A program made the position numbers and the translations under genes. The notes beneath the pieces were generated by a model, which made no database searches, was not told where the DNA came from, and worked only from the letters and a program-made list of their open reading frames with translations. A stretch of 64,000 nucleotides of DNA from Verrucomicrobiia bacterium (GTDB lineage: Bacteria; Verrucomicrobiota; Verrucomicrobiia; Limisphaerales; JAEYXS01): positions 1 through 64,000 of the forward strand of contig DASWYF010000037.1 in NCBI GenBank assembly GCA_036405135.1. The letters are read 5' to 3'. Of the stretch, positions 333 through 55,203 are shown piece after piece (position 1 is the stretch's first letter; each line of letters begins with the position of its first letter).

Positions 333-372
333 GAACGTTGGACGTTGAGAGTTGGAAGTTGGACGTTTCCCC
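333..372 (-). repeat. Heptad-periodic array, copy N
   Basis: Read on the plus strand, GTTGGAC, GTTGAGA and GTTGGAA follow one another with an exact spacing of 7 bases. On the minus strand this is five or six units of the form AACNNNN. See the 7-base-period finding. Confidence 0.65.
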
Positions 373-660: not shown

Positions 661-694
661 CTGAAAACTGAACACTGAAAACTTCCAACTCCGC
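661..694 (+). repeat. Heptad-periodic array, copy M
   Basis: Units such as AACTGAA, CACTGAA, AACTTCC and AACTCCG recur every 7 bases. This matches the AACNNNN consensus of the dispersed family. Confidence 0.6.
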
Positions 695-1029: not shown

Positions 1030-1063
1030 AACTCGAAACTCAAAACTAGGAACCCGAAACAGG
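1030..1063 (+). repeat. Heptad-periodic array, copy L
   Basis: Units AACTCGA, AACTCAA, AACTAGG and AACCCGA sit at exact 7-base spacing. The array is very close to the right arm of the array at 24306-24342. Confidence 0.65.
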
Positions 1064-21032: not shown

Positions 21033-21073
21033 GCAGTTGAGGGTGGATGGTTGAGAGTTGAGAGAAAGTTTGA
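21033..21073 (-). repeat. Heptad-periodic array, copy O
   Basis: On the minus strand, units such as AACTCTC and AACCATC recur every 7 bases. The array starts 5 bases after the pit stop and runs directly into the GCCTC...GCTACG element at 21074. Confidence 0.6.
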
Positions 21074-21096
21074 GCCTCGTCACCTCGGCTGCTACG
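21074..21096 (+). repeat. GCCTC...GGCTGCTACG element, copy 1
   Basis: A 23-base unit starting GCCTCGTCACCTCGGC and ending GCTACG. Relatives are at 27617-27692 (inverted pair), 41470-41499 (minus) and 53806-53828. Confidence 0.6.
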
Positions 21097-23439: not shown

Positions 23440-23516
23440 TGGCCACAAAAAGGCACAGAAGGCGCAAAAGGGGAGAACTTTGGAAGCGTTCTCTGAGGTC
23501 ACGCGCTAGGCTTGCT

Positions 23517-23560
23517 CACTCCTCACCCCAGCCCTCTCCTCATTGAGAGGAGAGGGAGAA
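23517..23560 (+). repeat. CCCTCTCC-type palindromic repeat, copy 3
   Basis: Hairpin CCCTCTCCTC-attga-GAGGAGAGGG downstream of nadA. One pair differs from the other copies (T-A in place of C-G), which keeps the stem. Confidence 0.7.
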
Positions 23561-23611
23561 CATCTGTCGCCGTTGAGGTTGTTTCACGACGCTGTATTTC
23601 GGCAGCGTCTT

Positions 23612-24185: not shown

Positions 24186-24233
24186 GAGATAGGGGTAACT
24201 CGCGGGGAGTTTCAAGTTTTCAGTGGAGGACAA

Positions 24234-24342
24234 AAGGTTTCTTGTTTCTGGTTTTGGGTTTCGGGTTGACGAGATTTTGGATGTTTAAGGGACGTAGAAA
24301 GCCGTGACTCGAAACTGGAAACGAGAAACACGAAACAGTTTC
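24234..24342. repeat. Pair of facing heptad-periodic arrays, copy K
   Basis: The left array (24234-24273) reads on the minus strand as units such as AACCCGA, AACCCAA and AACCAGA. The right array (24306-24342) reads on the plus strand as AACTGGA, AACGAGA and AACACGA. Because they face each other, the two arms can pair over most of their length. Confidence 0.7.
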
Positions 24343-39031: not shown

Positions 39032-39901
39032 ATGAAAACTTCCTTCCTTCTACTCTTGCTGGCCGTGTCTCTTTGCGGTGGTTTCAATGGCAAGGCGGCA
39101 GAGGGTGATAAAGCCGTCGCCATGCTCACCGAGGCTGAGAAGAAGATCCGGGCCGGTGATGTGAAAGGCGGAATGGAACTGGCAGATCAGGCGGTAAAGC
39201 TGGATCCTAAAAATCTTGATTCGTTATATGTGCGAGGGCGTTTGGCAGAGTGGACTAAGCAGTATGATAGGGCGCTGACCGACTATTCTGAGCTTATCAA
39301 ACAGGGTAAACGGACAACTGAACTTTATCAAAAACGTGGGGAGATCAATTTGCGTCTCGGCAATTTCAAGGAATCGGTGGCGGACTTTGACGAGTATCTC
39401 AAACGTGTTCCGTCGCAAGTTCCACAGCATTGGCAGCGTGGCATCTCGCATTATTACGCAGGCATGTATGCGGAGGGGGCGAAGCAGTTTGAGGATCATC
39501 GCACGGTGAATCCGAACGACGTTGAGAACTCGGTGTTCCACTACATCTGTCTGGTGAAGGCGAAAGACAAGGCGACGGCGTTGAAGGAGTTCATTCCCAC
39601 AGCAGGGGATGGTCGCGTGCCCATGATGCAGATCCATGCGCTGTATTCAGGAAAGGGCACGGTGGAAGAGGTTTTGAAGTCTTGTCAGGTGGGGAATCCC
39701 GGGCCGATAGAGTTAAAAGGACGGTTTTTCTACGCTCATTTGTATATCGGTCTCTGGTATGAGTCGGAGGGCAAGGCGAAGGAAGCGCGTGAGCATATCT
39801 TCAAAGCCGCTGGCGAATATGGTGTGGAGGGTTACATGGGGGACGTGGCAAGGGCGCATGCGGCGGTGTTCAAGAAACAGGACGGCCTTAAAAAGCCGTA
39901 A
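39032..39901 (+). CDS. Secreted TPR protein
   Basis: The 289-residue protein has a signal peptide (MKTSFLLLLLAVSLCGG) and four to five tetratricopeptide repeats between about residues 30 and 200 (for example AMLTEAEKKIRAGDVKGGMELADQAVKLDPKN, split over two helices, and LYVRGRLAEWTKQYDRAL). The C-terminal part (YAHLYIGLWYESEGKAKEAREHIFKAA) resembles a further TPR. It is not a close relative of the TPR units at 29817-33156. Protein-protein binding in the periplasm is inferred. Confidence 0.75.
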   Translation: MKTSFLLLLLAVSLCGGFNGKAAEGDKAVAMLTEAEKKIRAGDVKGGMELADQAVKLDPKNLDSLYVRGRLAEWTKQYDRALTDYSELIKQGKRTTELYQKRGEINLRLGNFKESVADFDEYLKRVPSQVPQHWQRGISHYYAGMYAEGAKQFEDHRTVNPNDVENSVFHYICLVKAKDKATALKEFIPTAGDGRVPMMQIHALYSGKGTVEEVLKSCQVGNPGPIELKGRFFYAHLYIGLWYESEGKAKEAREHIFKAAGEYGVEGYMGDVARAHAAVFKKQDGLKKP

Positions 39902-40043
39902 GCTCCAAATCCCAAGTTTAAAGCTCAAAAGAAGCTCCAAAGCTCAAGTTTCAATGCGGTGATGAGAAGCGGCTTCTGGTTTGATTTAAGTTTCTCCGCT
40001 GTTTGCCCCTCATTTTGAGCTTTGAGCTTTGAACTTTGAGCTT
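39899..40043. repeat. Facing heptad-periodic arrays, copy J
   Basis: The left arm (39899-39955) repeats AAGCTCC/AAGCTCA-type units every 7 bases with one 4-base slip. The right arm (40011-40043) is its near inverse (TTTGAGC, TTTGAAC). The arms can pair. The element fills the gap between the TPR gene and the enolase-superfamily gene. Confidence 0.7.
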
Positions 40044-53419: not shown

Positions 53420-53446
53420 GGAGGCAGGATGACAGGAGAAATGTTT

Positions 53447-53467
53447 AACGTCCAATGTTCAGATAGG
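53447..53467 (+). repeat. Short heptad-periodic array, copy R
   Basis: AACGTCC, AATGTTC and AGATAGG follow each other at 7-base spacing. They match 18-19 of 21 positions of the inverse of the array at 333-372. Confidence 0.5.
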
Positions 53468-53511
53468 GATGAACATCAAGTGTTGGGTGAAATGCTGAGG
53501 TGTATTATTTA

Positions 53512-55167: not shown

Positions 55168-55203
55168 GGAAACGTCGAACACCCAACTTCGAATCTCGAA
55201 AGG
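55168..55203 (+). repeat. Heptad-periodic array, copy P
   Basis: Units AACGTCG, AACACCC, AACTTCG and AATCTCG repeat at 7-base spacing between the aminotransferase gene and the secreted paralogue gene. A GCGGG-ttgca-CCCGC hairpin precedes it at 55141-55155. Confidence 0.65.

Follow-up and report, generated by a model that had tools for sequence, protein, structure and literature searches.

Tandem repeats with a 7-nt unit are known from several bacterial lineages. The heterogeneous (GGGANTN)n arrays of Xanthomonas consist of degenerate 7-nt units, mostly four in number, which lie between genes and form many close inverted pairs; these arrays are G-rich and were interpreted as forming G-quadruplexes, to which the mode of four units was linked (PMC4692102). 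In Geobacter metallireducens, 15 of the 16 class 3 putative global-regulator sites comprise five tandem heptanucleotides (MTYCTGA), with pairs on opposite strands (PMC2700814), and TAACTGA direct repeats are dispersed in front of start codons in Beggiatoaceae, cyanobacteria, and Bacteroidetes (PMC4679880). In REPINs, two copies of a short conserved sequence stand in inverse orientation on either side of a poorly conserved spacer, and both these doublets and singlets are dispersed in genomes (PMC3116915). The parS sites of omega, the ParB of pSM19035, are contiguous 7-bp sites, direct or inverted, at least four of which are needed for full activity (PMC9499535). The excess of heptamers, the inverted pairs, and the paired five-heptad sites are already described in Xanthomonas, Beggiatoaceae, and Geobacter, where they were left unexplained. 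What the present analysis adds is an AAC-phased five-unit layout across phyla, together with evidence against slippage; in the open-licence literature, we found no description of such a layout common to several phyla, nor of position-specific units as evidence against slippage.

The window analyzed here is a 64,000-nt stretch of a Verrucomicrobiia genome (contig DASWYF010000037.1), in which the initial annotation had listed nine short arrays between genes. The features in question are the following.

337..367, minus strand: AAC5 block of the GGGA-(AACNTCS)4-AAC-rTCSAGAG class, AACGTCC AACTTCC AACTCTC AACGTCC AAC.
661..683, minus strand: copy of module AGTTTTCAGTGTTCAGTTTTCAG, a second heptad family with 4 units.
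1030..1060, plus strand: AAC5 block of the GAAACNN class, AACTCGA AACTCAA AACTAGG AACCCGA AAC.
21033..21064, plus strand: weak, degenerate GTT array (GTTGAGA-like), adjoining a REP-like hairpin at about 21070-21093.
24208..24223, plus strand: truncated copy of the dispersed module AGTTTCAAGTTTTCAGTGTTCAGTTTTCAG, directly upstream of the focal pair.
24237..24267, minus strand: GTT5 arm of the focal inverted pair, GTTTCTT GTTTCTG GTTTTGG GTTTCGG GTT, that is, AAC5 on the minus strand.
24268..24305, no strand: spacer (loop) of the focal pair, with nothing recognisable.
24306..24336, plus strand: AAC arm of the focal pair, GAC TCGA AAC TGGA AAC GAGA AAC ACGA AAC, with GAC as triplet 1.
39900..39941, plus strand: left arm of a CAAAGCT-type heptad inverted pair, beginning where the preceding gene has its stop codon.
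40002..40043, plus strand: right arm of the CAAAGCT-type pair (TTTGAGC x4), with 26 nt between its end and the next gene.
53440..53468, plus strand: by inspection, a degenerate, truncated copy of the 337-type class, AATGTTT AACGTCC AATGTTC AGATAGGG.
55171..55199, plus strand: by inspection, a degenerate copy of the 337-type class, GGGA AACGTCG AACACCC AACTTCG AATCTCG AAAG.

The feature at 24234-24342 had been listed as an array, but its nature as an inverted pair had been missed, as had the fixed unit count of the blocks. It consists of GTT5, a spacer of 45 nt when measured up to the first exact AAC, and AAC4 (24313-24336, plus strand) after a GAC. Two classes of blocks occur in this genome. 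The GAAACNN class (AACTCGA AACTCAA AACTAGG AACCAGA AAC), to which 1030 and 24234-24342 belong, has no clearly conserved flanks, and the AACNTCS class, comprising 333, 53447, and 55168, is preceded by a conserved GGGA and followed by rTCSAGAG.GGG. Among the nine arrays, 333, 1030, and 24234-24342 stand as full AAC5 blocks, whereas 55168 (AAC AAC AAC AAT in register) and 53447 (AAT AAC AAT) are degenerate copies, both with the 333-type flank; the reported match between 333 and 53447 was right. The array at 661 belongs to another dispersed family, that at 39899-40043 is an inverted pair of a CAAAGCT-type unit which fills one intergenic gap, and those at 21033 and 23612 are weak. Module AGTTTTCAGTGTTCAGTTTTCAG has at least 10 copies in 1.2 Mb of the genome, and module AGTTTCAAGTTTTCAGTGTTCAGTTTTCAG is more complete in the orthologous gap of the same-genus genome G002. 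The REP-like hairpin at window positions 21070-21093, TTAGnGCCGnnTnACGnCGGCnGCTACGG, often occurs shortly after heptad blocks (L022 11945, L042 11279, and L219 of G002). Another dispersed hairpin repeat, CTCACTCCTCACCCC..CCTCTCCTC..GAGGAGAGGGAG, occupies positions 23504-23571 and has about 20 copies in G002; in G005, the U32 gene contains a related repeat that is apparently translated in-frame (SPGLRPPSPRLTGRGWGEG).

Like the Geobacter class 3 sites, the blocks have five heptads in tandem and frequently form pairs on opposite strands, with varying distances between the partners, but their units are AACNNGA and AACNTCS instead of MTYCTGA, and the class 3 sites, for which the authors proposed IHF/HU, come from one species and are reported with neither an AAC anchor nor a cross-phylum layout (PMC2700814). 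With the TAACTGA repeats, they have in common the dispersed heptads, AAC within the unit, the occurrence in distant phyla, and, in the verrucomicrobial genome G042, the position upstream of start codons; the TAACTGA repeats differ by a near-exact unit in two to six copies, the absence of a five-unit mode, and few inverted pairs in the Beggiatoaceae genome (PMC4679880). The omega parS sites likewise combine a 5-bp core and two looser positions at a contiguous 7-bp pitch, but their sequence is WATCACW and they are found in one plasmid family, in 7-10 copies, and not dispersed genome-wide (PMC9499535). In contrast to the Xanthomonas arrays, the blocks are AAC-anchored and not G-rich, their AACNNGA and AACNTCS units having no regular G-tracts on either strand, and still their runs stop at four to five units, an observation that makes the G-quadruplex account of the unit number less convincing. 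Kinship in spirit with the STRR heptamers had been suggested, and we judge this right. The 7-nt tandem intergenic period is present, but within-array likeness and open-ended copy number are found in a few long arrays only, and not in the typical block.

In the window, with the nine arrays read in register, AAC recurs at a step of 7 in three runs of five and one run of four, compared to no run of four or more in 100 exact dinucleotide shuffles. Six lag-7 segments were found against 0.17 expected, with none at lags 5, 8, 10, and 11 and two each at lags 6 and 9. We extended the counts to 1.215 Mb of the genome, of which crude gene calls leave 218 kb between genes. A minority of this sequence was included for holding GAAACNN arrays, the majority being stretches of C2, C13, and C37 not picked by array. 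Here, intergenic DNA contains 20 strong period-7 segments; its shuffled versions yield 0.4-1.0, and coding DNA, after scaling for length, yields 0.9. Lag 14 comes next, and smaller excesses at lags 9, 10, and 6 are due to other units. AAC leads the 32 trimers, forming 38 runs with at least four members at step 7 against 21 for AAA, the next in rank, and almost no GTT/AAC runs occur at steps 5, 6, 8, 9, and 10. The AAC-N4 rule and the strict 7-base period of a dispersed intergenic family, both put forward in the initial annotation, are borne out, and the refuting test named there, a comparison with shuffled intergenic DNA for excess genome-wide, was passed. Other dispersed short-period families are a 10-base one, CACAGATNNA, often after TTTAAC and near stop codons, and 9-base arrays of ACGCGAAYR and GAATAGGAC (10- and 9-base families together: loci L020, L058, L059, L040; L015, L016, L051).

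The number of units is fixed as well. In 1.2 Mb, there are 14 runs of four, 24 of five, and none longer, and in 1.59 Mb, which include regions chosen for AAC5, 17 runs have four AACs and 49 have five, the longer ones being single runs of 6, 8, 11, 20, and 25. The typical block therefore has exactly five AACs over 31 bp, and about a hundred such short blocks are dispersed between genes. In the whole genome, the pattern AACN4 x4-AAC has 144 matches versus 2 for the reversed-pattern (CAA) control, which is not independent where units contain CAAC; many of the 144 are overlapping frames of four long near-perfect (AACATCG)n arrays, and the remainder are mostly isolated. These own-genome figures derive from 1.2-1.6 Mb and from whole-genome pattern counts, the genomes being drafts. 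One long perfect (AACATCG)n array (G000 C4:17-152) sits at a contig end, so that arrays of this kind may interrupt assemblies and their counts may be too low.

The family is not a verrucomicrobial one: the same architecture is present in Gemmataceae, Pyrinomonadaceae, Flavobacterium, and a betaproteobacterium, that is, in Planctomycetota, Acidobacteriota, Bacteroidota, and Proteobacteria. Five-AAC matches are mostly isolated in the Pyrinomonadaceae genome G137 and the Gemmataceae genome G135, those of Flavobacterium are looser, and longer runs without a cap are found in Desulfonema, Moorena, Prevotellaceae, and G054. Across 79 Verrucomicrobiota genomes, AAC5 exceeds the control in 26 and falls below it in 9, with at least one match in 36. 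Matches occur in 19 of 20 genomes of other groups, which were picked because arrays were present (for example 74, 54, 35, and 17 matches versus 4, 1, 0, and 0 for the control); when the selected arrays were masked in 80 loci of those genomes, AAC was still the trimer that recurred at step 7 in the largest number of loci, with AAA, AAT, and ACT close. In the GTDB species set, the exact pattern (GAAACNN)3-GAAAC matches at least 119 stretches, and among the matches listed are Bacteroidota, Chloroflexota, Desulfobacterota, Acidobacteriota, Planctomycetota, Cyanobacteria, Patescibacteria, and others.

We propose, with a probability of roughly 55%, that the arrays are not microsatellites in decay but preformed, dispersed, REPIN-like blocks of five heptads which are read in trans by a factor with a 7-bp pitch. 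Each block comprises five AAC triplets spaced exactly 7 bp apart (31 bp), set in lineage-specific flanking letters (GAAACNN, NTCSAAC, WTAACNN, etc.). Ready-made blocks would have reached sites between genes and, in some cases, the linkers of proteins, where they are in-frame; two of them are often inverted around a short unrelated spacer as in REPINs, and a few loci would have been expanded by slippage into long perfect arrays. The putative factor, acting in trans and in a sequence-specific manner, would recognise the core and maintain and/or move the blocks; it might be an oligomeric DNA-binding protein, or a recombinase or transposase reading about five contiguous heptads. The fixed pitch and count, the conservation of the core in one orthologue, and the block-wise copying suggest such recognition in trans and spread as ready-made units, and the comparison of sequences argues that the blocks are read and are not a stutter of copying. 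A protein footprint with a 7-base pitch, already mentioned in the initial annotation, is our leading mechanistic guess. We found no binding protein or enzyme for the blocks, which counts against this explanation. The same holds for the uncapped longer runs of some genomes, the core comparison from one orthologous pair, the dependence of the CAA control, and the doublets, which unlike those of REPINs are not clearly more conserved than singlets; the position-specific units could also come from descent alone, and not from recognition. In a search for a source enzyme beside the long arrays, the two flanking genes tested near C4 and C9 (DUF1501, PSD1/PSCyt2) are ordinary and one gene near C25 has no Pfam match, and the best BLAST hits of the focal array against plasmids reach only E=0.9.

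An unlikely alternative is that the blocks are stationary sites of an oligomeric DNA- or RNA-binding regulator, comparable to the omega/ParB heptads or the proposed Geobacter global-regulator sites, and kept by selection instead of mobility. Consistent with this, pitch and count are fixed, cores are kept between species, and there is precedent for a protein with a 7-bp pitch that requires at least four contiguous heptads. Moreover, the runs of G042, which belongs to another family of the phylum, lie 6-33 nt before start codons and hug gene edges more closely than random (P=0.0015), as reported for TAACTGA. Nevertheless, location at gene edges had to be rejected as a general rule, as it is weak in G077 and absent in this genome, where the blocks are as far from gene edges as random sites, have either orientation, and are also found inside genes. 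The block-wise homology and the conserved flanks of one class point instead to copying, and turnover between genomes of the same genus is fast.

This turnover is seen in most of the gaps compared with G002: either just one of the two species has arrays there, or different dispersed repeats take their place. The focal gap of G002 contains GTTCAAA GTCCAAA GTTTAAG GTTCAAA GTT, versus the GTTTCNN units of the window, such that GTT is kept at 4 of 5 heptads and most other letters are changed; in G001 this gap has no array. At L012 11556-11644, the sole clean orthologous pair with G002, 6 of 14 NN sites are changed versus 3 of 41 core sites (P=0.005, from one locus with sites counted by eye). The U32 peptidase gene at L017:14131-16850 (G000 C33) contains two inverted heptad pairs in-frame and in the same phase (VSGFES...KPETKN / KPETRN), both absent from G001 and G002. 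Relatives carry variable linkers at site 1, and at site 2 G001 and G002 share an unrelated sequence, which indicates that the pairs are gains in this lineage, apparently by replacement.

Somewhat less likely still is that these are ordinary heptameric simple-sequence repeats, created by polymerase slippage with a preference for 7 nt, as proposed by Mrazek and colleagues (quoted in PMC4692102), and later decayed by point mutation. Heptamers are a known over-represented class, and the few loci with long perfect (AACATCG)n arrays (C4, C9, C16, and C25) look like slippage expansion; several relatives also have long homogeneous arrays (GAAACCT in G015, GAAACTA in G033). For the typical block, however, slippage, initially suggested as a source, is not supported. 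The units of a block are no more alike than expected from column composition: in four sets, the shuffles of columns that equalled the observed similarity numbered 332, 44, 398, and 400 out of 400. Unit positions are alike between blocks: none of 400 order shuffles reaches the observed identity in any of these sets, which are the two classes of this genome, G137, and G135, from three phyla. In G042, the N4 letters vary inside an array and AAC stays in phase. Because units are position-specific across blocks and show no extra likeness within them, the five-unit blocks do not result from local slippage, and the arrest of runs at five also speaks against slippage as the general cause, which we rejected. 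Nothing in the data specifically favors template-directed synthesis, which the initial annotation had also suggested.

Seven GTT-spacer-AAC inverted pairs were found in 1.2 Mb, all in that orientation, and many blocks are single. Similar GTT-AAC pairs occur in G042, Flavobacterium, Rhodothermaceae, Acidobacteriota, Planctomycetota, and a betaproteobacterium, and the opposite arrangement in G077 and Desulfobacterota. That such pairs are selected as RNA (or ssDNA) hairpins, for example terminators, attenuators, or processing sites, seems improbable to us. Inverted pairs do fold better than shuffles (z -4.8 for the focal pair, z -8.2 for the L012 pair), and one Flavobacterium pair comes after an intrinsic-terminator-like hairpin, but many blocks have no partner, the window contains no match to an Rfam family, and the arms are only modestly more complementary than random partners. 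At variable letters, the comparison of arms shifted by one unit versus in register gives about equal values (0.74/0.71/0.62/0.48 versus 0.75/0.68/0.62/0.46; random partners 0.68/0.66/0.47/0.41), so that selection does not seem to act on pairing at these letters, and we dropped hairpin pairing as the selected property. Inverted pairs of a CGTAAAT heptad (TCGTAAATCGTAAATCCAAAATCGTAAATC) lie near apparent tRNA genes (L062 9600-11310 and L063 1370-1440, G000 C13).

Mobilisation as REP sequences by RAYT (Y1) transposases is very improbable. The blocks resemble REPINs in their inverted doublets, variable spacer, dispersal, and singlets, this genome has 8 Y1_Tnp hits, and AAC5 and Y1_Tnp counts correlate over 79 genomes (rho 0.52, or 0.42 with genome size removed; phylogeny not corrected). 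REPIN arms, however, are RAYT-tied 16-mers with compensatory change (PMC3116915), whereas the heptad blocks show no register-specific complementarity, and doublets are not clearly more conserved than singlets (P=0.09). The three of eight RAYT genes examined are all flanked by other hairpins, with no AAC heptads, and the genome correlation has strong exceptions (64 AAC5 and no Y1_Tnp in G056, 47 Y1_Tnp and no AAC5 in G081). RAYT-type genes, each with its own distinct hairpin repeats, are located at L018:16077-16418, L036:3699-4037, and L252:2488-2832. Integron attC sites, whose core GTTRRRY/RYYYAAC is also 7 bp, were rejected by inspection, the blocks being 4-5 contiguous heptads of non-RRR units, and bending by phased tracts was set aside by reasoning, as no net bend is expected from 7 bp, two thirds of a helical turn.

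The reading of the arrays as preformed five-heptad blocks recognised in trans could be extended to one widespread bacterial machinery, a protein or transposase with a 7-bp pitch and a five-heptad footprint, that reads AAC-phased blocks, the heptamers of cyanobacteria, Beggiatoaceae, Xanthomonas, and Geobacter and those of this clade being its lineage-specific targets; we consider this possible but doubtful. An excess of 7-nt repeats in bacteria has long been reported and ascribed to slippage, the cases being described singly. If the typical arrays are ready-made five-heptad blocks whose AAC anchor is common to several phyla, neither slippage nor G-quadruplexes can explain this excess in general. 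There would then be a common reader to find, for which the 31-bp block would be a defined probe.
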